From assembly GCA_028281025.1 (NCBI GenBank), contig JANQKR010000016.1, positions 186,001 through 250,000 of the forward strand: a DNA stretch of 64,000 nt. Direction: 5' to 3'. The notes below the pieces were generated by a model. The model searched no databases and was not told where the DNA came from. It saw only the letters and a program-made list of their open reading frames with translations. A program made the position numbers and the translations under genes. This DNA is from Croceivirga sp. (GTDB lineage: Bacteria > Bacteroidota > Bacteroidia > Flavobacteriales > Flavobacteriaceae). Of the stretch, positions 13,015 to 31,179 are shown one piece after another (the stretch's first letter is position 1; each line of letters begins with the position of its first letter).

Positions 13015-14632
13015 CCCTACTACCACCAAAGCATGGAGCAACCTTGCAACCCATTATGAAGAGATCAAAAACCAACATTTAAAATCCTTTTTCGAGTCCG
13101 ATGCACAAAGGGCGGGACGCTTTTCCATTGCTTGGGAGGATTTTTATGTGGATTATTCAAAAAACAATGTTTCCGAAGAAACGCTCCAATTACTGCTAAA
13201 GCTGGCTGAGGAAGTTAAGTTAAAGGATGCGATCCATTCCTACTTTTCCGGGGATATCATCAACGAGACCGAGGGCAGGGCTGTTTTGCATACCGCATTG
13301 CGTTCCAAAAAAGGGGATACGATAAAAGTAGGGGGCTCCAATGTCGTCCAGGAAGTCCATCAAGTTAAAGAGCAGATCAAATCTTTCACTGAGGCCGTTG
13401 CTTCCGGACAAAAGAAGGGGTATACGGAAAAAAAATTCACGGATGTCGTCAATATTGGTATCGGAGGGTCGGATTTAGGTCCCGTAATGGTCACCGAAGC
13501 TTTGCAGTTTTACAAGAACCATTTAAACATCCATTTTGTCAGTAATGTTGATGGGGACCATGTGCACGAAGTGCTCAAAAAACTAAATCCGGAAACCACC
13601 CTGTTCATAGTGGTCTCAAAATCCTTCACTACACAGGAAACACTCAGCAATGCCATCACCATAAAAAAGTGGTTTTTGCAATATGCCAAAGAAGGTGATG
13701 TAGCCAAACATTTTGCCGCTGTATCCACCAATACCGCTAAAATTGACGAGTTTGGCATCGCAGCTGAAAATGTGTTCCCCATGTGGGACTGGGTTGGAGG
13801 TCGATTTTCACTTTGGAGCGCCGTAGGCCTATCCATTTCCTTGGCCATAGGTTATAAAAACTTTGGGCAATTGTTGGAAGGGGCCAATGACATGGATATT
13901 CATTTTAAGGAAACGGATCTTGCGAAAAACATTCCCGTAATCCTGGCACTTTTGAGTGTTTGGTACAACAATTTCCATGGTGCCGAGACAGAGGCCATTA
14001 TTCCCTATACACAATACCTACATCGATTTTCTGCGTATTTACAGCAGGGGATCATGGAAAGTAATGGAAAGAGCATGAGCAGGGCCGGACAAAGGGTAGG
14101 CTATGAAACCGGAACAATTATTTGGGGGGAACCCGGAACCAATTCACAACATGCCTTTTTTCAGCTGATCCACCAGGGAACCAAACTCATCCCTACGGAC
14201 TTTATAGGTTTTAAGGAATCCCTTCATGGCGATAAGGACCATCACAATAAACTAATGGCCAATTTTTTTGCCCAGACCGAAGCCTTAATGAATGGCAAGG
14301 GGGAAGAAGAGGTGAAAATGGAACTTGAAACGGCAGGTATTGCTTCTGGGCGTATTGAAAAATTGCTGCCCTTCAAAATTTTCGAGGGAAACAAACCCAC
14401 AAACACCATTCTTATCCAGAAATTGACCCCTAAAAGCCTTGGTGCATTGATTGCCCTTTACGAACATAAAATTTTCGTGCAGGGCGTAATTTGGAACATC
14501 TTCAGTTACGATCAATGGGGGGTGGAATTAGGGAAACAACTTGCCAAAAACATACTGGCTGACCTTGAAAATTCAGAAATTGGCAATCACGATGGTTCCA
14601 CATTAAATCTTATTCAATTTTTTAAAGAATAA
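12995..14632 (+). CDS. pgi: Glucose-6-phosphate isomerase
   Basis: Interconverts glucose 6-phosphate and fructose 6-phosphate. 545 residues from ATG 12995; a TTG at 12983 is also in frame but gives no better N-terminus. Both family signatures are clear: the sugar-phosphate loop [13 protein letters not shown] and the [15 protein letters not shown] segment. The catalytic glutamate/histidine region ([30 protein letters not shown]) is intact. Its start lies inside the end of the M23 peptidase gene, so translation may be coupled. No obvious terminator follows before the receptor gene. Confidence 0.97.
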
Positions 14633-14788
14633 TTAACAAAATCCTTAAATTATGACTTTTGTCAATCTGTTGGCAATCAATAATTTAAAATGGTTTTAAT
14701 CTATTTTTTCTCCTTTTTCTTAATAATTTATTAACGTTAAAGCTATTGCTTTGGCTGACTTTTGCAGTGCTAATTAAACACTGTTAAA

Positions 14789-17700
14789 ATGAAAAAAATC
14801 TACTTGGCTTTTGCAGCTATGCTCATGACTGCATTGGCATTTTCACAAGGGGTTACCACCTCAGCACTGGGGGGTAAAGTAACCGACGCATCAGGAGAGC
14901 CTCTTCCAGGGGCAAGTGTAGTAGCTGTTCACATGCCTACGGGTACAACTTATGGAGCAGCAGCCGATTTTGACGGATTCTACCGTATTTCAGGGATGCG
15001 TACTGGTGGTCCTTACACGATTACCATCTCCTATGTGGGATTCAATGATGATGTTAAAGATGGGGTGTTCTTAAACCTAGGTTCCACTGAAAGGATCAGC
15101 GCCCAGTTGCAAGAATCCGCTACTGCTTTGGACGAAGTAGTGGTCACTGCGGTATCCAGCGGCATATTTGGGGCAAACAAAACCGGTACGGAGACCAACA
15201 TTTCGCAACGACAGGTTGCTACTACCCCTGCTGCCTCACGTTCCCTAGCGGATTTCGTGCGTTTAACGCCGCAAGCCCAACTTACGGAAGGTGATGATGG
15301 GTTTTCCATCTCCTTGGCAGGACAGAACAACCGATACAATGCCATTTATATTGATGGTGCAGTGAACAATGATGTATTCGGTTTGGCCGGATCCGGAACC
15401 AACGGTGGACAAACCGGGGTTAACCCGTTGTCCGTAGATGCCATTGAAACCTTCCAAATCAATATTGCGCCTTTTGATGTAAAGCAATCCGGTTTCTCTG
15501 GAGGTTCCATCAACGCGGTGACCCGTTCGGGTTCCAACACTTTTGAGGGGTCTGCCTATTATTTCACCAGAAATGAATCCTTGGCTGGCAAGACACCTTC
15601 CGCTTTAATCAATGAAGGGGATGAAAGGGAAAGGTTGGCAGAGTTTTCTGCAAATACCTATGGGGTCCGTTTGGGTGGCCCATTGATCAAGGACAAACTG
15701 TTCTTTTTCGTTAATTACGAGAGGGGGGAAACCGAAATTCCACAACCATTTATTTCCTCAAATTATTCGGGGAGAATTGGTCAAATTCCCGATCCAAGCA
15801 ATCCTGGCCAAACCATTTTTGACCAAGCTACTTTTGATAATAACATCAATCAGCTCACAAATTATTTAGGCACTCAATTCGGCTACGATCCCGGGACTTT
15901 TGATAATAATACCAGAACTCTGGAAAGTAACACTTTGGTGGCCAAATTGGATTGGAACATCAATGAAAACCACAACCTTTCATTACGTCACAGTTATGTA
16001 GGTGCCGAAAATTTGGAGGCCAGAAACTCCGAGAACAGGGAAATTGGCTTTATCAATGGGTCCGAGTTTTTTGAATCCAACGTCAATTCCACAGCATTGG
16101 AATTGAACTCCCGATTCGGTAACAAATTCAGCAATAACCTTATTGTTGGTTATACTGCGGTTAGGGATGACCGTGACCCTTCCGGAGATCCATTCCCTAC
16201 TGTGGAAATCCAGGACGATGACGGAACCATTAATTTTGGTTCAGAACCCTTTTCAACAGCTAACTTGTTGAATACCGACTATGTGACCATTACCAACAAT
16301 TTCAATATCTACGCGGGTAGGCACACCATTACGTTAGGGGCCAACGCGGAGTTCGCACAGGTAAAAAACCTTTTCTTTGCCTTTAACTTTGGTAGTTATA
16401 CCTACGAAGATGTTTTTGATGATGATGGTAACCTCCTTTCCTCAGGTCTAAATGAGTTTTTGACAAACCAGGTTCCAGAAGAATACCAGCATGGTTATTC
16501 TTTGGTGGGAAGCAGGGCAGTTGGTGATGAATCTGATGGTTCCGCAGACTTTGAAACTGAACAATATGGGTTTTATGTACAAGACGAGGTAGATGTTACC
16601 GATAACTTCAGGGTTAGCATTGGTGCCCGTATCGACATTCCCGTTTGGAAAGATGGTCCCGTAAATGAGGACTTCAATACACGTACCGTTGGATTGTTGG
16701 AAGCCGCCGGCAAAGATTTACAGGGAGCACGCGTTGGGCAACAGATCAGCAATGCCGTATTCTCCCCACGACTAGGGTTTAACTGGGACGTTAACGGGAA
16801 TCGTACCACTCAAATTCGTGGTGGTCTAGGGGTATTTACCTCTCGTTTGCCTTTGGTATGGCCAGGTGGTACCTATAACAACAATGGGGTTACTGGAGGT
16901 TTTGCGGCGGACTTCAACCTTAACGTTACAGGATTCGAACCTGATGTGAACAATCAACCCAAAAATGTTGAACCCGGAACTGGTGGTCTTGGCGGTAATA
17001 TTGATTTGATTGCTGAGGACTTTCAATTGCCACAGGTAATAAAGTATAACATTGCCATAGACCAAAAATTGCCATGGTGGGGATTGATTGCCAGTGCTGA
17101 TTTCCTGTATACCGATGTTATTACGGATATTTTTTATGAAAACTTAAATGTGGGTGGTCCAATTGGCACTTATGAAGGTGCGGATAATCGTCCTTTCTAT
17201 GATAGAAGGGCGGAGATTGACGATACGTATGGCCGTATTATCCTAGCCTCCAATACCGGAGGCGGTAATGCAACCAGTGCAACCTTTACCTTGAGCAAGC
17301 CTTTCGAAAATGGTTTTGCCGGATCCATATCGTATTCGTTCAATGAATCCAACAAGATTTTTGATGGTACTTCATCACAGAATAGCTCACAATGGAGAAA
17401 TATTCAAACGGTAAATGGTAAAAACTCGGATTTGCCCGTGACCCGTTCTGACTTCGCTGGAGGTAGCCGAATTTTGGCCAATGTTTCCTATCAATACAAT
17501 TGGAACGAAAACTTTTCGAGTACCCTTGCTTTGTTGTACACTGGATTCCAAAATGAACCGTACAGTTTTACGTACAGACCTACTAGAAACAATGAACTTC
17601 TAAATGATGATTCACGGGACAATGCGTTGATCTACATTCCAAGAAATGCTTCTGAAATTCAATTCTCCGGAGATGCCGCAGAGCAAGCTGCGCAATGGGA

Positions 17701-18100
17701 GCAATTGGATAATTTCATCAATAGCGTTGACCACTTGAGGGAAAATAGAGGGGGTTATGCGGAACGCAACGGTTCAAGAGGCCCTTGGAGCCATATTGTT
17801 GACCTGAAATTTTTGCAGGACTTTAAAGTGAAGTTTGGAAACACCAAACACACCTTTCAACTTACAGCAGATATTTTCAACTTTACCAATTTCCTGAACA
17901 AGGATTGGGGAAGGTTAAAGTTTGTTCGAAGCAGTGTAAACCCATTAACAACGGTTTCTACCGGAGATACCCCGGTTTTCAGTATCAACCAAGGGGTTAT
18001 GGATGAAAATGGAAATCCTGATTTTGTCGAATTTGATGATGAAGGCATTCAATCCTCAAGATGGCAAATGCAATTTGGATTGCGCTATATTTTTAATTAA
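14789..18100 (+). CDS. Oar-type TonB-dependent outer-membrane receptor
   Basis: 1,103 residues: signal peptide (MKKIYLAFAAMLMTALAFSQ), a carboxypeptidase-regulatory-like beta domain (GGKVTDASGEPLPGASVV...GFYRISGM), a plug domain (LADFVRLTPQAQL..., YIDGAVNNDVFGL) and a long beta-barrel ending in an aromatic residue pattern (LRYIFN). This is the Oar/OmpA-related receptor plan, with no recognisable SusD partner next to it; the substrate is unknown. It stands alone: a 156-bp AT-rich leader precedes it and a strong terminator follows. The ACTTTTG upstream (about 14757) could be part of a degenerate -7 box. Confidence 0.92.
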   Translation: MKKIYLAFAAMLMTALAFSQGVTTSALGGKVTDASGEPLPGASVVAVHMPTGTTYGAAADFDGFYRISGMRTGGPYTITISYVGFNDDVKDGVFLNLGSTERISAQLQESATALDEVVVTAVSSGIFGANKTGTETNISQRQVATTPAASRSLADFVRLTPQAQLTEGDDGFSISLAGQNNRYNAIYIDGAVNNDVFGLAGSGTNGGQTGVNPLSVDAIETFQINIAPFDVKQSGFSGGSINAVTRSGSNTFEGSAYYFTRNESLAGKTPSALINEGDERERLAEFSANTYGVRLGGPLIKDKLFFFVNYERGETEIPQPFISSNYSGRIGQIPDPSNPGQTIFDQATFDNNINQLTNYLGTQFGYDPGTFDNNTRTLESNTLVAKLDWNINENHNLSLRHSYVGAENLEARNSENREIGFINGSEFFESNVNSTALELNSRFGNKFSNNLIVGYTAVRDDRDPSGDPFPTVEIQDDDGTINFGSEPFSTANLLNTDYVTITNNFNIYAGRHTITLGANAEFAQVKNLFFAFNFGSYTYEDVFDDDGNLLSSGLNEFLTNQVPEEYQHGYSLVGSRAVGDESDGSADFETEQYGFYVQDEVDVTDNFRVSIGARIDIPVWKDGPVNEDFNTRTVGLLEAAGKDLQGARVGQQISNAVFSPRLGFNWDVNGNRTTQIRGGLGVFTSRLPLVWPGGTYNNNGVTGGFAADFNLNVTGFEPDVNNQPKNVEPGTGGLGGNIDLIAEDFQLPQVIKYNIAIDQKLPWWGLIASADFLYTDVITDIFYENLNVGGPIGTYEGADNRPFYDRRAEIDDTYGRIILASNTGGGNATSATFTLSKPFENGFAGSISYSFNESNKIFDGTSSQNSSQWRNIQTVNGKNSDLPVTRSDFAGGSRILANVSYQYNWNENFSSTLALLYTGFQNEPYSFTYRPTRNNELLNDDSRDNALIYIPRNASEIQFSGDAAEQAAQWEQLDNFINSVDHLRENRGGYAERNGSRGPWSHIVDLKFLQDFKVKFGNTKHTFQLTADIFNFTNFLNKDWGRLKFVRSSVNPLTTVSTGDTPVFSINQGVMDENGNPDFVEFDDEGIQSSRWQMQFGLRYIFN

Positions 18101-18130
18101 AAACAGATGTCCCATTTAATGGACCACTTG

Positions 18131-18160
18131 AAAAACCCCGCTTAACAGCGGGGTTTTTTA
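18131..18160 (+). terminator. Intrinsic terminator after the Oar-type receptor
   Basis: A perfect 12-bp stem (AAAAACCCCGCT, loop TAAC, AGCGGGGTTTTT) with flanking A and T runs, 30 bp after the receptor stop. The symmetric A/T flanks let it work in both directions, so it may also end the convergent nucleotidyltransferase gene. Confidence 0.93.
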
Positions 18161-18262
18161 ATTATAAAATCCGTTATTCAAACTTTAAATAGTCTTAAAG
18201 AAAGCTATTTGAGATAAAAAGCACCATTCAGGGGTTCGGTGAAGTCCCTTATGATTGAATTC

Positions 18263-19873
18263 CTATGGGCTTCCCGTAAATCTGAAAGATTTGTTTTCCA
18301 CTTGTAAGGCGGCATAAATGATATAAGGAATATAAGATGATTCAATAAAAAGTATTTCCATGCACCTGATGGCCATCTCTTTAAGGAATACGATTTCTTT
18401 GGATACTGGCCTACCATTATCAAATAGGTGAAGGGCATATGCAGGAAAACTATCCAGTTCAGATGCTAAACCAGATAAGTTTTTTACCAGATCATCCAAC
18501 CCATCCCTAACGGTGGTATGATTTTTTGCATTCCATAATCCTTCGATTCCTTCTTTTTGTGACTGATATGTCCCTTCGAATTGGAGAATGGCGTTTTCAC
18601 GTCTTCTCAGTAACTCCTTGGAAGTTACACTTTCATTGCTGTCATAACTAAAAACAAAACAGCTTTTAAAGAGAAAGTGTAAAAAATCTTCAAACCTTGT
18701 ATGGCTTTTGGTGAAATAGGCAGCATTTAGTTCCTTTAGAACGCCCAAAGCACTGGCAATTTGAAAAGACGCATCAAAGGCCTTTTCGGGCTCCTCCAAA
18801 TTGTAATCATTGAGCTTTGCAAAAATGGGTAGTGCTTCTTTGTACAATTGTTCTTTCGCAAACTTGTATTTGGGATCCATGAAGCTTGGAAAGCTGATAT
18901 CAATTAAGTGCTGTCCTTCCTTAAGATGGTACAGCCAATCCATAAAGAAATTGTTCAGCCATTGGTTATCCGCGTGCACAATACAAAAGATGTCCATGGA
19001 AGGAAAACCGGACCCCGAAACATCGGTACTATAAAAATAGTGGGTGAAACGGGAGTTTGATTCACCCTTTAATTTCAAAAGGTGATGGTTAAGGGTTAAA
19101 ACCGAGTTTTTTCTTTGTTCATAGTTTCCGGAAAATCTAATTTGGACTGAAACAAAATCTTCATTGGGGGTAAGTTGTATACTTTCCTTGGCATAGAATT
19201 CAATAGCCCCCCCTTTGTTCTCAATTTCCACTTTGGCCAGTTCGGTTAATCTTTCGTAGTTTTTGTTGTGATAGGCAAACTCCAACGCAGAAACAAGTTG
19301 CTTTTTAAAGCTTGGGGCGTGCGCTTCAATGAACTTCATCCTATGTTTGCCATCGCCTTTCCAAGTTCCTTCGGAATGGAGCTTAAACCCTATCAGTTCA
19401 TCAATTAATTCGCCCGCCTCCAAAATCAGGTTTTCCCATTTCTCATTGGAATTGTTCAATTTGTTGACCAATTCCGTAATACGAATCCTTACCCTTAGAT
19501 GCTCATCATTGGACATTGGTTTTGGGCCCAATTGTTTCAATTCAACACAATGGTCGGATATTTCCTTTGTCAATTGTCTATTGCCATAGAAATGTAACCC
19601 TTTTGCCAAAAGTCCTATAAAGTGACCTCGAGCACCAATGTAATCGGCATATAACCGCTCATAGAGATGTTGCACGGGGATAATGAATGTTTGAAGTTTA
19701 AGTTTGTTCAACTGCAAAGTTTCGTTGTATAATCTGTTCCTATCGGATACAATGACGATGACGTCCAAATCCGATTTGCTATCCGCAGTCCCATCGATCA
19801 AACTCCCACTTAGTATCATGGTCAAATAATTGGGATAATGACCTGCTAGATAGTCAACAATACGTTGCTCCAT
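18263..19873 (-). CDS. Large nucleotidyltransferase-fold protein, unknown substrate
   Basis: 536 residues from the ATG at 19873 (a TTG eight codons earlier is also open). The N-terminus has the polymerase-beta-type nucleotidyltransferase motif G23-S24...D35-L-D37 (GSLIDGTADSKSDLDV) with both metal-binding aspartates. This family moves nucleotides onto small molecules, RNA or proteins. The remaining 400 residues are mixed helical, with HEPN-like helices around residues 110-210, and I recognise no other domain. It is divergent from the double-glycine peptide genes with a 161-bp spacer. A modifying role there is possible but unproven. Confidence 0.7.
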   Translation of the reverse strand: MEQRIVDYLAGHYPNYLTMILSGSLIDGTADSKSDLDVIVIVSDRNRLYNETLQLNKLKLQTFIIPVQHLYERLYADYIGARGHFIGLLAKGLHFYGNRQLTKEISDHCVELKQLGPKPMSNDEHLRVRIRITELVNKLNNSNEKWENLILEAGELIDELIGFKLHSEGTWKGDGKHRMKFIEAHAPSFKKQLVSALEFAYHNKNYERLTELAKVEIENKGGAIEFYAKESIQLTPNEDFVSVQIRFSGNYEQRKNSVLTLNHHLLKLKGESNSRFTHYFYSTDVSGSGFPSMDIFCIVHADNQWLNNFFMDWLYHLKEGQHLIDISFPSFMDPKYKFAKEQLYKEALPIFAKLNDYNLEEPEKAFDASFQIASALGVLKELNAAYFTKSHTRFEDFLHFLFKSCFVFSYDSNESVTSKELLRRRENAILQFEGTYQSQKEGIEGLWNAKNHTTVRDGLDDLVKNLSGLASELDSFPAYALHLFDNGRPVSKEIVFLKEMAIRCMEILFIESSYIPYIIYAALQVENKSFRFTGSP

Positions 19874-19996
19874 ATGTTCGTCCAAACCAAATATCAAAAC
19901 ATGTAACCGCTATATGAATTTTAAGTTAAATAATATTTAAAGCCTATCCAGTGCTCCAAAACATGCCTTTTTGTACTTACCTTTAGTGTAATACAA

Positions 19997-20024
19997 ATCT
20001 TACTTCGTAAGATAATCATTATCT
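19997..20024. promoter_or_regulatory. Overlapping inverted repeats upstream of the peptide genes
   Basis: Two perfect 7-bp inverted repeats overlap: ATCTTAC-TTC-GTAAGAT (19997-20013) and AGATAAT-C-ATTATCT (20010-20024). They end 10 bp before the first peptide start codon. They could be an operator, or a 5' UTR hairpin that can switch between two folds. Confidence 0.5.
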
Positions 20025-20034
20025 AAAAAATTAT

Positions 20035-20304
20035 ATGAAAATGAAAGAATTTAAGTTTCCTAAGCTAGAAAAAGAAAAACTGAGAAAAATCACCGGAGGT
20101 ACCACTTATGTTGATGGTATTCCTTGGGGTGGTGGTTTTTACAACCCAAATGATTCATCGGACGCAGGCCAGGAAGGTGGTCGTCAACCCAGTTGCAAAG
20201 GGAATAACCCTTCCACGGGCGGTCCAAAGGTTTTTAGGGATGATTATGATTGCAGTCGTTGTTATGCGTCTGGCTACACCAATTGTACGGTAATTACATA
20301 TTAG
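20035..20304 (+). CDS. Double-glycine leader peptide, four-cysteine core (paralog 1)
   Basis: 89 residues. The lysine-rich leader ends in the motif LRKITGG (Gly21-Gly22), the processing site used by C39 peptidase-containing exporters and by Bacteroidota natural-product precursors. The predicted core begins TTYVDGIPWGGGFYN, shared with the next gene, and then diverges into a polar tail with Cys54, Cys73, Cys76 and Cys84. Four cysteines allow two disulfides, in keeping with the disulfide-forming protein encoded downstream. A second ATG two codons in (20041) may be the start. Function (bacteriocin, signal or other) is not known. Confidence 0.82.
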   Translation: MKMKEFKFPKLEKEKLRKITGGTTYVDGIPWGGGFYNPNDSSDAGQEGGRQPSCKGNNPSTGGPKVFRDDYDCSRCYASGYTNCTVITY

Positions 20305-20444
20305 GTCCAAACAATGGCCCGTTTACTATTTTGTCGCGCAAGGCACAGGGCCAATATGGAAGGGCAATAAAACATCCGCCACCTTCCACGTAAAAAGTAC
20401 TTGGCAAAGAACAGAAATAAGAAGTATCCAAAAATTAAATAAAA

Positions 20445-20678
20445 ATGAAAAAATTCAAATTTCCAACGTTAAAAAAAGAAGAATTACAAAAAATTAGAGG
20501 GGGTACTACCTATATTGACGGTGTTCCCTGGGGAGGTGGTTTTTACAATGATAATGACGAGTCAGGTAATAGCTCACCCCGGACTTGCTATCGTTGGATT
20601 TGTGGGGCCAATGGACCTATTTTCACTACCCAAATCTCCTGTGGCGCCCATAATAATTCGCCAAGACACTGTTTATAA
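20445..20678 (+). CDS. Double-glycine leader peptide, four-cysteine core (paralog 2)
   Basis: 77 residues, a paralog of the preceding gene. The leader ends in LQKIRGG (Gly19-Gly20) and the core starts TTYIDGVPWGGGFYN. The tail differs fully from paralog 1 apart from having four cysteines (48, 53, 66, 76). It lies 140 bp after paralog 1 and is followed by a strong terminator, so both may be one transcript. The conserved leader and core start with a variable Cys tail suggests a peptide family under diversification. Confidence 0.82.
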   Translation: MKKFKFPTLKKEELQKIRGGTTYIDGVPWGGGFYNDNDESGNSSPRTCYRWICGANGPIFTTQISCGAHNNSPRHCL

Positions 20679-20743
20679 GCTACTTGAATTGAGCTATACT
20701 GAACCGTTGTAGCAATTTAATTGTGTCATATCATCGCTGATCT

Positions 20744-20778
20744 AGGATTTAAATAAGTTCCTTATTTAAATCCTTTTC
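20744..20778 (+). terminator. Intrinsic terminator after the peptide genes
   Basis: A perfect 13-bp inverted repeat (arms 20744-20756 and 20762-20774, loop GTTCC), followed by TTT, lies 66 bp after the second peptide stop. The stem is AT-rich (AGGATTTAAATAA), so it is weaker than GC-rich terminators despite its length. Confidence 0.7.
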
Positions 20779-21202
20779 ACATTACATGGATTTTAAGTTT
20801 TGATTGAAGTAACAAAAAACTCCGACAACCCCAAGTCTATTTTTGAAATTCAACAAGCTTTCAATTTCTATGCGAATCAGGCGGTCGCAATGGTCGTAGG
20901 AACCATGACACATAGGTAACAACCATGCCGGAAAAGGTCATCCAACATCTTCTAGAGACTGTAGTTTACTAATTGTATTTCATCCAATCGTATAAAGTTT
21001 TAGGACAAATCAACCATACACCCTTGCTGACTTACTATTGAATTCATTTTGAAGAGACATACGTATCAACCCATACCGGCAACACTAACCGTTGAAGTAA
21101 AGTTCAACATTTCCAGAAAATCAATTCCAGGAAACCACGGTAAACTTTACATAGCGGAACCCTGAAAAAGCACTTTTACCCTTTTTGATTTCTATTTTAT
21201 CT
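20779..21202. other. Spacer between the peptides and the C39-like/VKOR gene
   Basis: About 420 bp with no convincing gene. A frame opened by TTG near 20799 reads 38 codons (LIEVTKNSDNPKS...) before a stop and looks protein-like, with acidic and polar residues then QQAFNFYANQ. It could be the scrap of a lost gene, but no homology can be stated. The rest shows nothing recognisable. The fusion gene must have its own promoter here. Confidence 0.3.
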
Positions 21203-22732
21203 ATGATCAATCATTTTCAATTCTTACCTAGGTTTCTTCGCATACATCACCATTCCATTTCCGATAGGGAATTGAAGCTACAAATCGCCTCCCACCCAGA
21301 TTTTCCAAGCCTATACGCCATTACGGATACATTAACAATGTTTGGTGTTGAAAACCAAGCCTATCAGGTGGATAAAAACCAATTCCATCAACTCCCAGAT
21401 TGTTTTTTATGCGTAATAAACAGGTCAAACGACTTGCCCTCCATTGCAATGATTGAAAAAAAAGCAAATTCAGTTAAAGTTCAATATGAGAACGGTCAAA
21501 AAGAAAAGCTGGATATAGACTATTTCAAAGCGCAATGGAGTGGTGTGACGGTACTGGTGGAGCCCAGCGAAAGAAAAGAAACCTCCTTTAAAGCAAACAC
21601 CTTCTCAATCACGACCGCGTTTGTAGGGTTGGCGAGTTTGTACACCGTTTTATCCAATTTCAATTGGATGGTTTTACTATCCCTTCTCTTGGTTATGGTT
21701 GGCTTTGGAATTAGTTTATTAATCGTTCAAGAAAGTTTGGGGATACGTAACGCATTGACGGCAAGGGTTTGTAATTCCGGCAAGAATTCCAGTTGTAATG
21801 AGGTCCTTTCCTCCAAGGGGGCGAAAATTTTTGGTTTCATAGAATTGGCCGATGCCTCAATAATATATTTTGTCACTTTATGGTTGACTATTTTTCTATC
21901 AAGTCTTAAAGGGAGCTCTTTTGCCGAATTCTACCTTTTTGTGGTCTCCAGTATTATAATACTGCCATACACCATTTATTATCAATGGAGGGTTGTAAAA
22001 AAATGGTGCCTGCTTTGCCTTGGTATCACAATAGTTATTTTATGCCTTTCAATACTGGGAGGTGTGTATTTATCATCCAACAATTTTTCCTTTGGTCTTG
22101 GTAATGCAATGATACCGGTCGGTTCATTAGTTTTCGTCTCTTTGGTTTGGATTGAAATAAAAAAACTTTGGAAACAGCATATCCATTTTAAGAAGTTGGA
22201 ATTTGACCACTACAAGTTTAAAAGGGACAGTGGCATATTTGATGCAGCTTTGAAAAAATCCGTTCCATTGACGGAACCCAATTACATCCCAATAGTCATC
22301 GGCAATAAAACTTCTGAAGAAAAAATAACGATTGTCTTGAGCACATCATGCGGATATTGCCATGACACCTATACGAATGTGCAAGGGCTGTTGAAAAAAA
22401 ATGAATCCCTAAAAATTGAAATTTTGTTCAACATGAATATTGGGAATATAGGTAACCGCTATAATGTAGTTGCCAAAAGACTAATGGAAATTGCCTTTGA
22501 GGATTCAAAAATTGATGAAGCCTTATCAGATTGGTTTGAAAAAAATACATCCCTAAACGTTTGGCTGGAAAAATGGAAGGAATCAAAAAACAAAAAATAC
22601 GATAGCTTATTGCATGAACATGTTAATTGGTGTACGAAAAATAATATCAATTATACCCCAGCTATCGTTTACAAAAATTATTTGTTTCCAGAAGCTTATA
22701 GTCTGACCGATTTATACTATGTACTAAAATGA
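21203..22732 (+). CDS. C39-like / VKOR / thioredoxin fusion, membrane disulfide-forming protein
   Basis: 509 residues from ATG 21203. An N-terminal cytosolic domain (1-115) has the fold pattern of C39 bacteriocin peptidases (SHPDFPSLYAITDTL...PSIAMIEK) but lacks the catalytic cysteine. Five or so membrane helices of a vitamin K epoxide reductase domain follow, with loop cysteines C190 and C198 and the active-site pair C269-x2-C272 (WCLLC). A C-terminal thioredoxin/DsbA-like domain carries C383-GY-C386. Together these make a full electron relay for forming disulfides in exported peptides. The four-cysteine GG peptides just upstream are its obvious substrates. Confidence 0.88.
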   Translation: MINHFQFLPRFLRIHHHSISDRELKLQIASHPDFPSLYAITDTLTMFGVENQAYQVDKNQFHQLPDCFLCVINRSNDLPSIAMIEKKANSVKVQYENGQKEKLDIDYFKAQWSGVTVLVEPSERKETSFKANTFSITTAFVGLASLYTVLSNFNWMVLLSLLLVMVGFGISLLIVQESLGIRNALTARVCNSGKNSSCNEVLSSKGAKIFGFIELADASIIYFVTLWLTIFLSSLKGSSFAEFYLFVVSSIIILPYTIYYQWRVVKKWCLLCLGITIVILCLSILGGVYLSSNNFSFGLGNAMIPVGSLVFVSLVWIEIKKLWKQHIHFKKLEFDHYKFKRDSGIFDAALKKSVPLTEPNYIPIVIGNKTSEEKITIVLSTSCGYCHDTYTNVQGLLKKNESLKIEILFNMNIGNIGNRYNVVAKRLMEIAFEDSKIDEALSDWFEKNTSLNVWLEKWKESKNKKYDSLLHEHVNWCTKNNINYTPAIVYKNYLFPEAYSLTDLYYVLK

Positions 22733-22765
22733 AGCAATAAAACCTATCTTTAATTTTCCTGACTG

Positions 22766-22799
22766 TTGTTCGTCTTACTTCCAAAATTAGCTACATTTG
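22766..22799 (+). promoter_or_regulatory. Promoter of the 145-residue membrane protein gene
   Basis: TTGTT at 22766-22770 and the perfect -7 box TACATTTG at 22792-22799 are separated by 21 bp, the Bacteroidota spacing. The start codon at 22818 follows 18 bp later. Confidence 0.6.
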
Positions 22800-22817
22800 G
22801 AGTATTATATTTAATTT

Positions 22818-23255
22818 ATGGAAATCCTAAAAAACCTCCACTCCTATTTAGCCTATATTGTTCTATTGGTTTTGATCGTTGCCGTTGCCAATGCGCTTAT
22901 CGGTTGGTTTGCCAAAAAGGATTTCCGCTTTGAAAAGGATTTAAGGATAAGTCTTTTTGCCCTGATTTTAAGTCATATACAGTTATTGGTCGGGATAATT
23001 CTTTTCTTCGTTTCCACCAGTGGATTAAAGGCCATCCAAATTTTGGGCATGGGGGGCTTAAATGCGCCTGCCCGATTATTGGCCGTGGAACATCCGTTCG
23101 TCAATATCATTGCCCTGGTTTTGATTACCGTGGGATGGTCGCGTCATAAGAAAACCGACAATTCCACTGCCAAGTTTAAACGGATCGCCATTTTTTACGG
23201 ATTGGGATTGGTACTTATTCTTAGTCGAATCCCCTGGGGACAGTGGTTAAATTAA
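22818..23255 (+). CDS. Four-TM membrane protein (flavobacterial 'cytochrome b-like')
   Basis: 145 residues with four hydrophobic helices (about 10-30, 45-65, 88-105, 122-140) and conserved histidines in NLHSY, LSHIQ and EHPFVN. Homologous proteins in flavobacteria are often labelled cytochrome B, since paired histidines in neighbouring helices could ligate heme, but no enzymatic role is shown. It has its own promoter and overlaps the convergent nuclease gene by 4 bp. Confidence 0.65.
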   Translation: MEILKNLHSYLAYIVLLVLIVAVANALIGWFAKKDFRFEKDLRISLFALILSHIQLLVGIILFFVSTSGLKAIQILGMGGLNAPARLLAVEHPFVNIIALVLITVGWSRHKKTDNSTAKFKRIAIFYGLGLVLILSRIPWGQWLN

Positions 23256-24295
23256 TCCTTCTCCACCTCTTTTATCAAAAACAAATAGATTGGGAAATGG
23301 TCCGCATAACCTCCTTGGTAGGTTGTGCCAATGTACGTTCGAAACGGGTAGCCTCGGTACTTTCCACGTGGATTCGTTAATTCCTTGGGGGCATGGATTC
23401 CCGCTTTCCAAAAGGAATAGTCCCGCTTATCCGAAGTAAGGAAATTAGGTGTCAGTATAAACTGGTCGAACAAATTCCATTTGTCTCTATAGGCCAAGGT
23501 CCCTTGCCCCTTTTTAAACAACCTTTCCATGGGATTGAACAGGCTTAGACTGTCCAATTGTTTTTGTTTTCCCTTTGTCCGCAACACCTTTTTTAAGCTT
23601 GCATTGGTGGGATCATCATTTAAATCCCCCATGGAAATGATCTTTGCATTGGGATAGATATCCCTAAGGGAGTCCATGATACGCTTGTTCAAATGGGCTG
23701 CTTTTATCCTATTGGGCCTACTCCGCAGTTCTCCACCACTACGTGAGGGCCAGTGGTTCACAATAAAATGCATTTCCTCATTGTCCAAAAATCCCGAAAC
23801 CACCAATTGATCTCGTGTATAATCCCGATGGCCTTCCCCGTCCATCAATACCAACCGAATGCTTTTAAAGTCAGTGGGTAAAAAAGAAGCCTTTTTGTAC
23901 ACCAGGGCCACATCTATACCGCGTTCGTCCGGAGAATCAAAATGGATACTGCCATAATCCTTATCCCTGAGATTGACATGACCGATCAAGTCCTGGACGA
24001 CACCTTTATTCTCCACCTCACAAAGTCCAATGATATCCGGAGATGTTCCCGTCACCTTACGCCCAAGCTCAGACAATACCTTGGAGATATTACGAATCTT
24101 CCTGTCATATCGTTCTTTTGTCCACGCGTAACGGCCCTCAGGAGTACGTTCATCATCAAAAATCAAGGTGTCGTTGGTGATATCAAAAAGGTTCTCCACA
24201 TTATAAAAAGCCACGGTCCTGATCTTGTAGGTAACACTTTCCTGACCAAAACATGGACAACCAATCAAAGCTAATATTAATAGAAAACGAATCAT
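23252..24295 (-). CDS. Secreted endonuclease/exonuclease/phosphatase-family nuclease
   Basis: 347 residues with a signal peptide (MIRFLLILALIGCPCFGQ). The EEP-fold motifs are in order: YNVENLFD (Asn), IGLCEVEN (metal-binding Glu), the NHWPSRSGG segment (catalytic His) and MGDLNDDP (Asp/Asn), with a C-terminal YADHFPIYL (Asp-His). All catalytic residues are present, so it should be an active Mg-dependent phosphodiesterase or nuclease outside the cytoplasm. It is divergent from a TonB-dependent receptor, which suggests joint use of extracellular nucleic acid or organic phosphate; this is inference. Confidence 0.9.
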   Translation of the reverse strand: MIRFLLILALIGCPCFGQESVTYKIRTVAFYNVENLFDITNDTLIFDDERTPEGRYAWTKERYDRKIRNISKVLSELGRKVTGTSPDIIGLCEVENKGVVQDLIGHVNLRDKDYGSIHFDSPDERGIDVALVYKKASFLPTDFKSIRLVLMDGEGHRDYTRDQLVVSGFLDNEEMHFIVNHWPSRSGGELRSRPNRIKAAHLNKRIMDSLRDIYPNAKIISMGDLNDDPTNASLKKVLRTKGKQKQLDSLSLFNPMERLFKKGQGTLAYRDKWNLFDQFILTPNFLTSDKRDYSFWKAGIHAPKELTNPRGKYRGYPFRTYIGTTYQGGYADHFPIYLFLIKEVEKD

Positions 24296-24387
24296 ACGCC
24301 CTAAAATAAATCAAGTTCCCTGTTTTTTAAGATTTCTTGTATGGAATTGCTGGTTTTTTTGTTAAATTGATGCCATACTTAACCTAA

Positions 24388-27132
24388 ATGTATCGAGGTT
24401 TCCTCCTCATTACCGTTCTTTTACAAGGCTGGTGGTGCTTCTCCCAAAACACAAGTACCATAACGGGCATACTGATCAATGGACAAACCAACAAACCTAT
24501 TTCCCGGGCGTCCGTTTACCTGGACAAAGCCATGGAGGAAGCTTCCCTTGATAGCTCGGGTACTTTTGGTTTGACTACCGATCAAACTGGGGAATTTGTA
24601 TTGGTTATTGAAGTCCCGGACCTTATTTCGAAACGATTTGTCCTTCAACTTGAAGGTTTACCCCTAAATCTGGGCACCATCGTTTTGGAACCCGACATTA
24701 CCCTGGAACAAGTGGATAACCTCATCACGTTAACCGAGAATGACCTTTCCGATGATGAGGGAACCCTCTCCTCTTCCAATGGATTATTACAAGCCACAAG
24801 GGATGTTTTTTTGACAAGGGCTGCTTTTGATTTTGGGCAGGCATTCTTTCGTGTGAGGGGCTATGATTCCAGGGAAGGCCAGGTCCTGATCAACGGGATG
24901 GTCATGAACAAATTTTTTGACGGAAGGCCCCAATGGAACAACTGGGGTGGCCTTAACGACGTGGTACGCAATCAAGAATTCACCAATGGTTTGGGAGCTT
25001 CTGCCCTCACTTTTGGAGGGTTTTTGGGCAATACCAACATCAATACACGTCCTTCCGGACTTCGTCCGGGGACCCGATTGTCCACCTCGTATTCCAATAG
25101 GACCTATAGCGGAAGGGTAATGGCCACCTACAATTCCGGAAGTAACCCAAATGGCCTGGGCTATGCTTTCTCCGGATCTCGAAGGTGGGCAAAAGAAGGG
25201 CATATTGACGGTACACCTTACGATGCGTATTCCTTTTTTGGAGCTATGGAATACCAATGTAACCCAAAACATACCCTTGTGCTGACCACTATTTTGGCCA
25301 AAAACCGACGTGGGCGCTCCTCTGCCATTACGGAAGAAGTACTTGAATTGGCGGGCAACCGATATAATCCCTACTGGGGGATTCAAAATGGGAAAATTAG
25401 AAATTCCCGGGAACGGGACATCTTCGAACCCCTTGCCATGATCAACCATTTTTATGAATCCAAAAAATTGAGGATTACAACGGGTATTGCCTATCAAACG
25501 GGAACCCATGCCAGAAGTAGGCTGGGGTATTTCAATGCACCAAATCCAAACCCGACCTACTATCGTTATTTGCCCAGTTTTTATGTAAACAATCCGATTG
25601 GTGCTGATTTTACCAATGCCGCCATGGCCAGGGAGGGATTTTTAAAAAATCCCCAAATCAATTGGTCCCAACTGTATACGGCCAATACTTCTCCTTCACA
25701 ACTGGGAAAAGCGGCCTATGTCCTTTACGATGACACCGTAGCAGATTCCAAACTCCTGTTCACCACTAGTGGCAACCTTGACATCAACGATAACTTCAGC
25801 ATCGATTTTGGAGCTTCTTATCGTGATTTGAACTCGGAGAACTATGCGGAAATTTCCGATCTGTTGGGTGCTGAATTTCATGAGGATATCGACCCTTTTT
25901 CAGAAACATTGAATGATATCCAAGGTGATGTAAACAAATATGAAGGTGCTATTTTCAACTATAATTATGCCCTGAAGGTCAACGATTGGAGTGGGTTTGC
26001 ACAACTCAACTTTAACAAAAACCAGTGGAGTGGGTTTGCCTCGGGAATGCTCTCGAAAACCGAATACCAAAGAAATGGGCTCTTCCAAAACCAGCGTCAT
26101 CCGGAAAATTCACTTGGAAAAAGTGACCCCATCAAATTCTCCAACTATGGCATTAAATCAGGGATTTCCCATCAATTAACGGGAAGGCATTGGCTTCAAG
26201 CCCATCTTGGATTGTGCAAAAGACCGCCCACGCTACAAAACACGTTCATCAACCCAAGGGAAAACAATGAAATGGTATTGAACATCCAATCCGAAACCGT
26301 ATCCACGATGGATATCAATTACCTTCTCCGTCTTCCTGATTTAACGGGGAGGTTGACCTGTTTTTATACCCACTTTCAGAATGCAACGGATATCAATTTC
26401 TTTTTTGTGGATGCGGGTGTAGGCTCCGATTTTGTCCAGGAAGTCATTACGGATTTGGACAAACTGCATAAGGGCGTGGAGCTGGGACTGGAATACCAGG
26501 CTTCCCCACAAGTAAAACTTTCCTTGGCCGCCAATTTGGGGGAATACACTTTTGCGAGCAACCCCAACGTCACCATCAATTTTGATACGGCCGGTGCGGA
26601 GGAAGATGTCATCGATCCCGAAGGAAGTACCGCCCTGGGGAAGGCAGATATCAAAGGTTTAAAATTGGCCCAAGGACCACAGACGGCCGTGGCATTGGGA
26701 GTTGAGTACCGAGACCCTGACTACTGGTGGATTGGGGCCACCACAAATTATCTTGCCAATAATTACGCCAACATTTCCACTATCATCCGCACCCCGAGCT
26801 TTGTTTTGAACCCGGAAACCGGAATGCCGTTCCCGGAGGCCACACCGGAAAATATAGCCCCCCTTTTGGAACAAAAACCCCTGGACAATTTTTACCTGTT
26901 GAATCTCGTTGGCGGGAAATCATGGTTGGTCGATGGGAAATACATCAGTTTTTTTGTGAGTGTCAACAATGCCTTTGATGAACTCTTCCGCACCGGGGGC
27001 TTTGAGCAGAGCAGAAATGGGAACTTTGGGCAATTGCAACAGGACAACCTTAGAAATGACCCCTCCTTTGCACCAAGGTACTGGTACGGTTTTGGACGCA
27101 CCTATTTTGTAAACTTGGCACTTGGTTTTTAA
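24388..27132 (+). CDS. TonB-dependent receptor paired with the secreted nuclease
   Basis: 914 residues: signal peptide, a degenerate carboxypeptidase-like beta domain (ITGILINGQTNKPISRASVYL), a plug (FDFGQAFFRVRGYDSREGQVLINGM) and a beta-barrel ending in ...FVNLALGF. It lies 92 bp from the divergent nuclease gene. The barrel contains NPYWGIQNGK and NSRERD segments that I recall from flavobacterial receptors placed next to nuclease genes. Its substrate is unknown; nucleic-acid-derived material is a reasonable guess. The last 118 bp of the gene recur downstream at 28825-28942. Confidence 0.9.
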   Translation: MYRGFLLITVLLQGWWCFSQNTSTITGILINGQTNKPISRASVYLDKAMEEASLDSSGTFGLTTDQTGEFVLVIEVPDLISKRFVLQLEGLPLNLGTIVLEPDITLEQVDNLITLTENDLSDDEGTLSSSNGLLQATRDVFLTRAAFDFGQAFFRVRGYDSREGQVLINGMVMNKFFDGRPQWNNWGGLNDVVRNQEFTNGLGASALTFGGFLGNTNINTRPSGLRPGTRLSTSYSNRTYSGRVMATYNSGSNPNGLGYAFSGSRRWAKEGHIDGTPYDAYSFFGAMEYQCNPKHTLVLTTILAKNRRGRSSAITEEVLELAGNRYNPYWGIQNGKIRNSRERDIFEPLAMINHFYESKKLRITTGIAYQTGTHARSRLGYFNAPNPNPTYYRYLPSFYVNNPIGADFTNAAMAREGFLKNPQINWSQLYTANTSPSQLGKAAYVLYDDTVADSKLLFTTSGNLDINDNFSIDFGASYRDLNSENYAEISDLLGAEFHEDIDPFSETLNDIQGDVNKYEGAIFNYNYALKVNDWSGFAQLNFNKNQWSGFASGMLSKTEYQRNGLFQNQRHPENSLGKSDPIKFSNYGIKSGISHQLTGRHWLQAHLGLCKRPPTLQNTFINPRENNEMVLNIQSETVSTMDINYLLRLPDLTGRLTCFYTHFQNATDINFFFVDAGVGSDFVQEVITDLDKLHKGVELGLEYQASPQVKLSLAANLGEYTFASNPNVTINFDTAGAEEDVIDPEGSTALGKADIKGLKLAQGPQTAVALGVEYRDPDYWWIGATTNYLANNYANISTIIRTPSFVLNPETGMPFPEATPENIAPLLEQKPLDNFYLLNLVGGKSWLVDGKYISFFVSVNNAFDELFRTGGFEQSRNGNFGQLQQDNLRNDPSFAPRYWYGFGRTYFVNLALGF

Positions 27133-27133
27133 A
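27016..27133 (+). repeat. Direct repeat, copy 1: 3' end of the TonB receptor gene
   Basis: 118 bp, from AATGGGAACTTTGGGCAATT to one base after the stop. It recurs without gaps at 28825-28942 with four mismatches, all transitions. Copy 1 is the functional end of the receptor. Confidence 0.95.
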
Positions 27134-27282
27134 CCACACCCTTTGGGGCGGTGTTTCAATCCAAAAAAGTGGTCATTTCAAACGCCATACAGCGATTCTC
27201 CTTTCTTCCCTAAACCAAGACCTAAATTTTAAGAATCTTTTTTTAAAGGGTTAAAAACTTAAAGGAAATAAGGCATTGCCTT

Positions 27283-27861
27283 TTAATTTCCACCCCAACC
27301 TTCATCAGTCCTCGGGGTATGATCATACTCCAAATCCGGCAGATTGACTTTGGGGCAAGCCTCGGAAGACGTACCGGCATAGGGTTGTTGGCCCCTACCG
27401 GCCAAATAGCCCGCTATTTTCCCTTGATTCCAGGACCCTTCCCTGTTTTCAAATAAGGCCTCATAATAACTCTGGAACGTATTTTGCACTTCTTGAATAA
27501 TCATAGCGGTATAATGCGATGGTCCTCCCAGGATACGTACGCCAAGAAAGTTACCATCCCTATCTTTCACCTCCTTTATTTCATATTTGTAACAAGACGG
27601 TAGGTCATAATTGGAAGCTACCCAGTTGTAGTGGTATACCCAATCGCCATAACCCCTTTTCCATCCACAATCATATTGTTTATCCTCAAAAATACCATAG
27701 CCATCACAATCGGGTGGGGAGTCCGCTGGGGGATCCTGGGGTAGGATAATTGTTGCTTGAACAGCTTCAATAGTTTCAAAGCTTTCTTCGGGAATTTCAT
27801 TTTCCGTGGAACAGGAGAGGCACAGAAAAAGGACTGCGATAATAAAATTGATCGATTTCAT
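27283..27861 (-). CDS. Hypothetical lipoprotein with a cysteine- and tryptophan-rich domain
   Basis: 192 residues from the ATG at 27861, chosen because it starts a lipoprotein signal (MKSINFIIAVLFLCLSC); an open frame extends a further 27 codons upstream without signal. The mature protein has a proline- and acid-rich linker (ILPQDPPADSPPDCDGYG), then an aromatic domain with CDGYGIFEDKQYDCGWKRGYGDW and cysteines in LPSCYKYE and EACPKVN. I recognise no family. It is encoded antiparallel to its neighbours and lies inside the segment bracketed by the duplicated receptor end. Confidence 0.65.
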   Translation of the reverse strand: MKSINFIIAVLFLCLSCSTENEIPEESFETIEAVQATIILPQDPPADSPPDCDGYGIFEDKQYDCGWKRGYGDWVYHYNWVASNYDLPSCYKYEIKEVKDRDGNFLGVRILGGPSHYTAMIIQEVQNTFQSYYEALFENREGSWNQGKIAGYLAGRGQQPYAGTSSEACPKVNLPDLEYDHTPRTDEGWGGN

Positions 27862-28142
27862 TTTTGTGGGGTTTTGGTTACTTAAATGTAAAGAATATAT
27901 TTGCAAATAAGATAGTATAAATCTAAAAAACAATCTTTCCACAGCCCAAAAGGTAATAGGGTTTTAGGTTTATCATTTTGTGAGCTTGGCAGTTGGTCTT
28001 CAATTGGACTTTATTGAATCGATGATAAAGTCTTAAAGCATTCTTTTGTCGAATGGCAGGATACAGTCAAGATTTCCCTTTTTTAATGTTACATGGGAAC
28101 CCTTAATGGTGCAGTAACAATTATCTAATTTTTTGTTAGACG

Positions 28143-28241
28143 ATGAATTATAATTTTTTCAATACTCTCATTTTTTCCGGAATAATCTATGGATTGATAT
28201 TCTCATTTTTAACATTATCCAAAAAGAGTGACAAATGCTAA
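28143..28241 (+). pseudogene. Scrap of an AraC-type membrane regulator N-terminus
   Basis: A 32-codon frame (MNYNFFNTLIFSGIIYGLIFS..., then polar LSKKSDKC) has one hydrophobic helix and resembles the first helix of 7TM-AraC regulators of this phylum, which often open with an FNTLIxxGIIxG pattern. The rest is missing. Its stop overlaps the start of the next gene (ATGCTAA, 7 bp), so if translated it would be coupled to it. It is either a remnant reused as a leader or a small membrane peptide. Confidence 0.35.
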
Positions 28242-28771
28242 AAGTCAACAATAAAATTAACGCTTTGCTCATAGCACTAATCGGTGTCTTAGGATTTAAT
28301 TCCCTGGTGAATTGTCAGACATCCCACAATGAAAAGGGAACACTTGAGAACTTTCTTGAAGTTTTATTTGATGAAAATGTCCCCGCTTCAGAGGTTGTGG
28401 ACAACCATGTTTACACAGAAAAATATACAGCTAGTAATAACGATGTCGTGGATGGTAGAACACTTGCCATTAAACACGTATTGTGGGTAAGACAGGAAAT
28501 GAATAAAGACAGTGGATATGTTTTACCCAATTATCAAATTGCCAACAAGCAAAATCGGGTAATAGGGCGTTATTTGGATTACAAGGATGTAAGCCCGTTT
28601 AGTTTTGCGGAATTGAGCAAAAAGGACCTGGAACAGATTTATATTGTACTAAACCTGGATAAAACGGAAGTACATCACTATTTCCTGATAGAGAATACCA
28701 AAATCCTTTCTTTTTGTTCCCTTGCCAAAGGGAAGGATTATCTAAATTTTTTCATTTATAGTGACTCTTGA
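28235..28771 (+). CDS. Hypothetical secreted protein
   Basis: 178 residues with an N-terminal hydrophobic signal (INALLIALIGVLGFNSLVNCQ); the Cys at 27 could be a lipobox-like site but the -3 context is poor. The mature part is mixed alpha/beta (SEVVDNHVYTEKYT..., FAELSKKDLEQIYIVLNLD) without a recognised motif. The start overlaps the upstream 32-codon frame by 7 bp. It lies between the two copies of the receptor 3' end and is probably part of acquired cargo. Confidence 0.6.
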   Translation: MLKVNNKINALLIALIGVLGFNSLVNCQTSHNEKGTLENFLEVLFDENVPASEVVDNHVYTEKYTASNNDVVDGRTLAIKHVLWVRQEMNKDSGYVLPNYQIANKQNRVIGRYLDYKDVSPFSFAELSKKDLEQIYIVLNLDKTEVHHYFLIENTKILSFCSLAKGKDYLNFFIYSDS

Positions 28772-28804
28772 ACCTAAGATGGAAGGGCCAAAACAGGGGA
28801 ATTA

Positions 28805-28942
28805 AAAATTGGCCCAAGGACTACAATGGGAACTTTGGGCAATTGCAACAGGACAACCTTAGAAATGACCCCTCTTTTGCACCAAGGTACTGGTACGGTT
28901 TTGGACGCACTTATTTTGTGAACTTGGCGCTTGGTTTTTAAA
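28805..28942 (+). pseudogene. Remnant of a TonB receptor gene (duplicated 3' end)
   Basis: Two pieces of the 24388-27132 receptor sit fused here. 28805-28824 matches 26661-26680 (19 of 20 bases), and directly after it 28825-28942 matches 27016-27133 (114 of 118). The intervening 335 bp of the receptor is absent, and there is no start codon or signal peptide. This is a decayed second copy, not a functional gene. Confidence 0.9.
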
Positions 28943-29087
28943 TCCAAACCATCATGAACCGAACACAGTTCCTTACTTTAGATTTATTGGTCTTCCGAAA
29001 TACGAGTTGGAACCCATGCTGAAATAATGGCCATATGCATTAATTCTGTTTCTTTACTTATCTTAGGGGTCCAATCCTAAAAAATTC

Positions 29088-29567
29088 ATGAAAAGACTCA
29101 TAGTGTTAGCAGCCCTTGGCGCTTTTATGGCAAGTTGTGGCGGTAAAAAAGAAGAAAAAAAAGACGGTTTTGAGGTAAGTCGCACCAAAAAAGAGGACAA
29201 AAAGGAAGTAGCCAATGAAGGTGTTCCCATAGATTTGAACAATAAAGGGGTAGGTCCCATTACGGAAATAAGCTTTCCGGATGAAATAGATACGGAAATG
29301 GCCGCTCGTGGGGAAGCCCAGTTCAATGCCATTTGTGTAGCTTGCCACATGGTGGACCAGCGCATGATCGGTCCGGCCCTAAAGGGAGTGTACGAAAGAC
29401 GAAGTCCGGAATGGGTCATGAACATGATGTTGAACCCGGACGGGATGCTTAAGGAAGACCCCATAGCCAAGGCCTTGTTAAAGGAATACAACAATGCCAT
29501 TATGCTCAATCAGAACTTGAGCGAGGAAGAAGCACGAGATCTCGCAGAGTACTTGAGAACGCTGTAG
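29088..29567 (+). CDS. Monoheme cytochrome c lipoprotein
   Basis: 159 residues. The signal ends in a lipobox (FMASC, Cys at 17), followed by a Lys/Glu-rich linker (about 18-45). The heme-binding motif CVACH lies near residue 84, and a methionine in the C-terminal part (RMIGPALKGVY or the MML/ML region) is the likely sixth ligand. It is a periplasm- or membrane-anchored electron carrier. I recall similar short cytochromes (GFEVSRTKKE, PIDLNNKGVGPI) beside nitrous-oxide reductase genes in flavobacteria, but no nos gene is nearby here, so the electron acceptor is unknown. Confidence 0.88.
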   Translation: MKRLIVLAALGAFMASCGGKKEEKKDGFEVSRTKKEDKKEVANEGVPIDLNNKGVGPITEISFPDEIDTEMAARGEAQFNAICVACHMVDQRMIGPALKGVYERRSPEWVMNMMLNPDGMLKEDPIAKALLKEYNNAIMLNQNLSEEEARDLAEYLRTL

Positions 29568-29636
29568 ACAAGTAAACGTAATTCTTTGAAATGCTGTTAT
29601 CCCAAAGCGATGTGGTAATGGCATTTTTTGTTTCGT

Positions 29637-30014: not shown

Positions 30015-30093
30015 TATGAAAACAATAAACTGCAACCCATTGGGCAGGGCCTACGATACGGAGATCCCGGCCAACCAACCACCCCTCAAAACC

Positions 30094-30804: not shown

Positions 30805-30811
30805 AACCATC

Positions 30812-31168: not shown

Positions 31169-31179
31169 ATCAGAAAACC

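Follow-up and report, generated by a model that had tools for sequence, protein, structure and literature searches.

On a contig of Croceivirga sp. (Flavobacteriaceae; assembly GCA_028281025.1, contig JANQKR010000016.1) we analysed a stretch of 64,000 nucleotides (positions 186,001 to 250,000), called the window in the following and providing all coordinates. It carries two small genes for peptides with a leader ending in GG, named P1 and P2, followed by one gene for a membrane protein in which a C39-like domain, a VKOR core and a thioredoxin (Trx) domain are joined, hereafter the fusion. The features of this cluster, with lengths in base pairs (bp) or amino acids (aa), are:

20035..20304, + strand: P1 precursor, 89 aa, with a 22-aa GG leader and a 67-aa core holding four Cys
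20445..20678, + strand: P2 precursor, 77 aa, with a 20-aa GG leader and a 57-aa core holding four Cys
20744..20777, + strand: hairpin of 14 bp with a short tail of T, located between P2 and the fusion gene, a weak terminator or attenuator candidate
21203..22732, + strand: C39-like/VKOR/thioredoxin fusion gene, 509 aa
21203..21562, + strand: C39-like domain, aa 1-120, with the catalytic Cys box absent and no strongly hydrophobic segment
21599..22168, + strand: six membrane helices, aa about 133-322, with the VKOR pairs C190/C198 and C269/C272
22283..22729, + strand: thioredoxin/DsbA-like domain, aa about 361-509, with CGYC at 383-386, P486 and an extra C477

The open reading frames (ORFs) of the two peptides, their leaders and their four core cysteines each are as the initial annotation had described them from the DNA alone. 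Both leaders are basic and end in LRKITGG and LQKIRGG, and P1 and P2 agree in the leader and in roughly the first 15 residues of the core, TTY(V/I)DG(I/V)PWGGGFYN, while the Cys-bearing parts have diverged. Over 40 aligned codons we counted 15 silent and 10 residue-changing differences, with 10, 5 and 17 differences at codon positions 1, 2 and 3, and as silent changes outnumber replacements in the compared part we read P1 and P2 as real genes. The Bacteroidota promoter pattern (TTTG, then TAnnTTTG) was not found in the cluster and occurs 7 times in the window with 7.1 expected, and 11 sigma-70-like sites were observed with 10.2 expected. The region 20679-20830 folds with a z-score of -2.16; the hairpin in it was not picked up by a scan for terminator-type patterns and by our reading its tail has too few T.

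For the fusion we prefer the ATG at 21203 as the start, the mechanical ORF beginning at TTG 21185, and counted from this ATG the cysteine numbers given initially (C190, C198, C269, C272, C383 and C386) are correct. Pfam recovers all three domains of the proposed architecture, namely VKOR (2.4e-12, 47.6 bits with a cut-off of 27.5), Peptidase_C39 (7.4e-8, 32.7 bits with a cut-off of 22, from profile position 22 onward) and, just above its cut-off, Thioredoxin_4 (4.2e-5), and with both Cys pairs present the protein belongs to the VKOR fold family. The unmatched start of the Peptidase_C39 profile is where true exporter C39 domains carry their Cys box. Among 121 fusion homologues the six redox cysteines are conserved in all, and the catalytic Cys box is absent from all (13 have some Cys before H31, none with the box pattern), in agreement with the earlier description of the C39-like domain as inactive and not as expected for an active C39 peptidase. 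A seventh cysteine, C477 (22631-22633), lies close to the cis-Pro loop in the Trx domain and is conserved in 115 of these homologues.

An AlphaFold model of the fusion (mean predicted local distance difference test score, pLDDT, 87.5; predicted TM-score, pTM, 0.65) shows six long helices (133-151, 155-178, 215-236, 241-265, 270-292 and 299 to about 322) between a C39-like and a DsbA-like domain, and a second homologue was modelled with the same six helices (pLDDT 83.1, pTM 0.54). When the model was compared with solved structures by Foldseek, PCAT1 chains came first and HlyB, whose C39-like domain is dead, came 23rd; the clean local matches were the peptidase domains of ComA and PCAT1, those of ComA covering the C39-like domain with TM-scores of 0.64-0.68 on the target, and DsbA/ScsC-type proteins. 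A profile of C39 domains from 26 neighbouring exporters also matched the C39-like domain (probability 96, E-value 1.6e-9). The N-terminal domain of the fusion has the same fold as the C39 domains of PCAT-type exporters but differs from them in lacking the Cys box and in being joined to a redox enzyme instead of an ATP-binding cassette (ABC) exporter, and by analogy to them it plausibly binds the leader.

A first scan for related loci with a single fusion protein as query gave no match. Searched for independently of any peptide, fusion homologues were found in five of 11 genomes of the genus, in 40 of 299 sampled genomes of the family and in 41 of 395 sampled genomes of the phylum. Two sets of genomic contexts were compiled. 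The first consists of 41 loci including the window, made up of 35 of the 57 listed family matches (mostly the top ones) and six further genus matches, with a partial match in one relative (G005) excluded. The second comes from a scan of named genomes with a 12-row fusion alignment and holds the best 80 of 141 relatives, at least six of its 80 contigs being also present in the first set. As peptide we accepted an ATG frame of 35-110 aa with a charged Cys-free leader, GG at 14-32 and at least three core Cys, at a distance of at most 3 kb. The initial annotation had named the co-occurrence of such peptides with the fusion in relatives as a check, and the association held up, with same-strand peptides in 33 of 41 loci of the first set (57 peptides, and two antisense) and in 64 of the best 80 relatives (159 peptides, and none antisense). 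The number of cysteines is even in 50 of the 57 (binomial p 2e-9) and in 145 of the 159 peptides. At some loci of the second set (L126-L205) GG-leader, Cys-rich peptides stand in long rows, with as many as 8 inside 3 kb (for example L147 and L173), which makes these loci a source of undescribed peptides.

A relative of the C39 ABC exporter is present in 27 of the 41 and 60 of the 80 loci and a HlyD relative in 56 of the 80. The usual gene order in relatives is fusion, peptides, exporter and HlyD; in the window the peptides come first, followed by the fusion without an exporter. Using BLAST with the called ORFs of at least 110 aa of the window we found no relative of the exporter, of HlyD, or of LanB and LanC as expected for a class I lanthipeptide locus (the last two queried with the proteins from contig C31 of the same genome), which agrees with the earlier statement that neither an exporter nor a lanthionine enzyme stands beside the cluster. 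The alternative offered there, a transporter encoded elsewhere, fits the genome, which has three C39 ABC exporters outside the window (C8:45110, C3:34213 and C31:103829). The window is also not alone in this arrangement: 14 of the 41 loci have no exporter (two of them, L056 and L058, near contig ends), they group together on a quick tree with the window copy among them at weak support, and in 12 of them the strict pattern finds a peptide on the same strand. Ten other genomes whose fusion has no exporter beside it were searched for C39 domains, and nine of them gave a match, in an open frame of 718-743 aa.

The Croceivirga genome itself has four copies of the fusion, located in the window and on the contigs C8, C31 and C14. 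The exporter at C8:45110 is flanked by a HlyD gene and a fusion paralogue, and the opposite strand there carries two four-Cys peptides of 113 and 122 aa with GG leaders. The C14 paralogue has a 47-aa GG peptide with four Cys behind it, and the C31 paralogue (L044:6281-12335) has a LanB made up of two genes on one side and LanC on the other, where no precursor peptide was recognised. Taken together, we have hardly any doubt that peptides, fusion and exporter form one system, and we regard it as quite probable that the fusion makes the disulfides of the peptides.

In ordinary bacterial VKOR-Trx proteins five helices are present and the N-terminus lies inside. The fusion has one extra helix before the VKOR core, so that its C39-like and Trx domains must share one side of the membrane. 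At a hydropathy threshold of 1.4 helices c and d pass in 108 and 109 of the 121 homologues and the other four (a, b, e and f) in 117-121 (helix a in 120), and the N-terminal domain stays below the threshold in all 121, with 1.36 as its highest value. A sequence match to PCAT1 running into the first helices was considered as the source of the extra helix and dropped as too weak (E-value 0.005).

In order to see which side this is, lysine plus arginine (K+R) residues were counted at two places, the nine residues ahead of CxxC and the surroundings of the c-d loop. The 121 fusions, whose loci include at least six contigs present twice, have means of 1.98 before CxxC and 0.29 around the loop, with 117 going one way and none reversed; the 58 non-redundant fusions (below 50% identity, duplicates dropped) have 2.09 and 0.36, with 57 one way, one tie and none reversed. 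VKORs from the same phylum without a C39-like domain behave the opposite way. In a looser count, which left out five loci without the motif in the picked frame and had L228 picked at the wrong CxxC, 30 of them have 0.20 and 3.07 (28 opposite to the fusions, two like them), a stricter motif picking with seven loci left out gave 26 of 28 opposite, and the 16 non-redundant ones have 0.25 and 3.25 (14 opposite, two the reverse). After versus before the last helix the fusions have 3.43 and 0.44 K+R, with 120 of 121 one way, in contrast to 22 ordinary VKOR-Trx proteins with 0.91 and 2.64, of which 17 go the opposite way and two the reverse. The Fisher test for the charge contrast gives p 3e-13, which is not a probability of being right as related sequences are not independent. 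The fusion therefore does not have the five-helix form with positive charge away from CxxC that ordinary periplasm-facing VKOR-Trx proteins show. By the positive-inside rule, in which basic charges mark the cytoplasmic side, the reversed bias would turn the redox sites towards the cytoplasm, and model and charge counts together suggest that all redox sites and the C39-like domain face the cytoplasm around an inverted VKOR core. From this we infer that the leader-bearing precursor would be oxidised before export, and the initial annotation, which had placed the oxidation outside the cytoplasm, is probably wrong in this point. A step before export is also supported by the C31 paralogue between LanB and LanC genes, as LanB/LanC modification precedes export.

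The following course of events would result. P1 and P2 would be made with their leader, which the dead C39-like domain of the fusion would hold as exporter C39 domains do. The Trx-like domain on the same cytoplasmic side would hand disulfides to the core, and the inverted VKOR core would re-oxidise the Trx-like domain, passing the electrons to the membrane quinone. The folded precursor would then go to a C39 ABC exporter, here encoded elsewhere in the genome, that cuts after GG, exporter C39 domains making this cut on the cytoplasmic face, and exports the core. We lean towards the view that the fusion oxidises the peptides on the side of the cytoplasm while its C39-like domain holds the leader. 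The complete picture of a leader-guided disulfide synthase, in which a dead protease domain reads the GG leader and an inverted VKOR installs native disulfides at the cytoplasmic face before the ABC exporter cuts and secretes, we consider an even call.

Several observations weigh against this picture. No peptide was found by the pattern in eight of the 41 loci (L042, L044, L049, L050, L054, L056, L080 and L081) and in 16 of the 80; looser listings show a Cys peptide with a GG-like leader at six of the eight, at three of them on the other strand, and none at L044 and L050. At L042 two GG-leader peptides of 113 and 122 aa with four Cys each (3984-4325 and 5244-5612) lie on the strand opposite to the row of HlyD, C39 exporter and fusion. 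No clear relatives of P1 and P2 exist in the 299 family genomes, where only the two themselves match well and five weaker matches reach E-values of 0.01-0.07, so that their pairing with the fusion rests on position. One genome with an exporter-less fusion (G209) shows no C39 exporter on genome search, the C31 paralogue, one of the four copies of the own genome, falls short of the Pfam C39 cut-off, and the likeness to PCAT1 is limited to the C39 domain as the whole-chain root-mean-square deviation is near 30 Å. The charge rule is a tendency that two of the 16 ordinary VKORs break, the topology of these controls is itself assumed, and only two of them (L225 and L240) share the class of the window, and most of the control set belongs to other families of this phylum. 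The residues preceding helix a and the long loop with the Cys have a net charge close to zero (-0.26 and +0.61), which leaves the short loops and the segment following the last helix as carriers of the charge signal. The cytoplasm is moreover a reducing compartment, and among solved structures the Trx domain is closest to proteins of DsbA/ScsC type, some of them titled periplasmic.

The last point also speaks for the ordinary orientation, in which the VKOR and Trx sites are periplasmic and the core is oxidised after export, with the C39-like domain periplasmic too or the first helix not spanning the membrane. The solved VKOR-Trx relatives 3kp9 and 4nv6 likewise work outside the cytoplasm, and for the bacteroidetocins disulfide making by the thiol oxidoreductase is only inferred by the authors, with no site stated in the available part of the paper (PMC6671954). 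We consider this orientation unlikely: at the c-d and d-e loops and at the last helix the charge bias is the reverse of the ordinary one, and the 120-aa N-terminal domain without signal would need to cross the membrane. A leader reader in the periplasm would also have nothing to read, as the leader is removed by the exporter's own C39 domain (PMC6363468).

Still less probable is a cluster left over from a bacteriocin locus, passive or in decay, whose peptides are not made. This reading would explain the missing exporter in cis and the 524 bp with the hairpin separating P2 and the fusion, but the ORFs are open, the shared part of P1 and P2 differs mostly silently, the redox residues are conserved, and the exporter-less loci cluster on the tree and keep their strict-pattern peptide in 12 of 14 cases. 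That P1 and P2 are precursors of lanthipeptides or of other enzyme-modified RiPPs (ribosomally synthesised and post-translationally modified peptides) modified in trans, with the fusion as a redox helper, is highly improbable, even if the genome has LanB and LanC at C31 by Pfam and by eye probably a second set at C3, and even if the leaders weakly resemble TIGR04149 for peptides modified by radical S-adenosylmethionine enzymes (15.4 and 14.1 bits, below the cut-off of 25), as LanB-like genes occur in only two of the 41 and one of the 80 loci (one contig being common to both sets) and the mostly even Cys numbers fit disulfides.

A cytoplasmic oxidation by the fusion can be compared with known systems. 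With their basic GG leader and Cys-rich core P1 and P2 resemble class II bacteriocin-type peptides, differing from these in having no C39 ABC exporter in the same locus. Closest are the bacteroidetocins (class IIf), also from Bacteroidota, with a GG leader and, in A and B, four Cys; further shared features are a dedicated thiol oxidoreductase, a C39 ABC exporter and the lack of an immunity gene. According to PMC6671954, deleting the gene for the protein with five transmembrane segments or that for the thiol oxidoreductase attenuates the toxin, and the four genes suffice in E. coli. Compared by this description, bacteroidetocins have the five-transmembrane protein and the thiol oxidoreductase as separate genes beside the exporter, a layout the window does not show with its single C39-like-bearing fusion and no adjacent exporter, and their leaders have 15-16 aa and the A and B cores 42 aa, whereas P1 and P2 have leaders of 20-22 aa and cores of 57-67 aa (PMC6671954). 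From this precedent bacteriocin-like activity is our best guess, and the product is most probably a pair of bacteriocin-like peptides.

The bacterial VKOR-thioredoxin proteins of PDB 3kp9, 4nv2 and 4nv6 share with the fusion the VKOR core with two Cys pairs and the C-terminal Trx domain; unlike them, the fusion has an added N-terminal C39-like domain, an extra helix and the reversed charge bias. VKOR of Aeropyrum pernix reportedly acts in two compartments (Hibender et al. 2017), so that VKOR action on the cytoplasmic side would be possible, in this case in an archaeon; it is not known to have a leader-reading domain. We did not recognise a description of a C39-VKOR fusion in our searches of open-licence PMC papers, judged mostly by title and start of the abstract, and the terms 'vitamin K epoxide reductase' and 'peptidase C39' occur together in no paper of the open-licence PMC collection searched. 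Three papers that mention VKOR, C39, thioredoxin and disulfide and four that mention VKOR and bacteriocin deal with other subjects, judging from their titles. A term search of the accessible part of a VKOR phylogeny (PMC4555120) found neither C39 nor peptidase, and the accessible part of a survey of Bacteroidales RiPPs (PMC10352776) does not mention VKOR.

The cluster lies on an insert that also carries one further gene:

18172..22817, no strand: insert of 4,646 bp, where two close relatives have 28 bp, holding P1, P2, the fusion and a Polbeta-like gene
18263-19873, - strand: 536-aa gene on the insert with a start resembling Polbeta nucleotidyltransferases (below the Pfam cut-off)

It is absent from all six genus genomes compared over 12001-32000. 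G004 has flanks of 96% (12001-18171) and 93% identity (22818 on) and G005 of 90% (12001-15720), 64% (15899-18171) and 95% (22818 on), with 28 bp in between in both; in G007, G003, G008 and G002 the flanks are more diverged and the spacing of their matches leaves no room for the insert. The G+C content in 1-kb windows is 0.37-0.40 inside and 0.41-0.48 outside. The ends are uncertain by some bases, as the similarity to the relatives continues for a few bases beyond 18171. By these alignments the block as a whole was either gained here or lost in the relatives. The Polbeta-like gene, for which PADLOC gave weak PDC-S09 matches, has no homologue in the 122 context loci searched and was treated as a passenger. 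A 145-aa membrane gene just downstream was considered as immunity gene and rejected, being present in 11 of 11 genus genomes. Further downstream a direct repeat of 118 nucleotides (97% identical) was seen at 27016-27133 and 28825-28942, in which the 3' end of a large gene ending at 27132 recurs 1.8 kb downstream behind an ORF at 28235.

In summary, we explain the cluster best, with somewhat more than even confidence, as a Bacteroidota module for secreting peptides that has an enzyme of its own for forming disulfides. Disulfide bonds in peptides secreted by bacteria are regarded as forming outside the cytoplasm. If the proposed route is true, disulfide formation would become a leader-dependent modification before export, similar to RiPP modifications, and the combination of leader reading with an inverted redox enzyme would provide a means to produce disulfide-rich peptides within cells. 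As the fusion is widespread in the sampled genomes of the phylum, it would also offer a handle for finding many undescribed secreted peptides.

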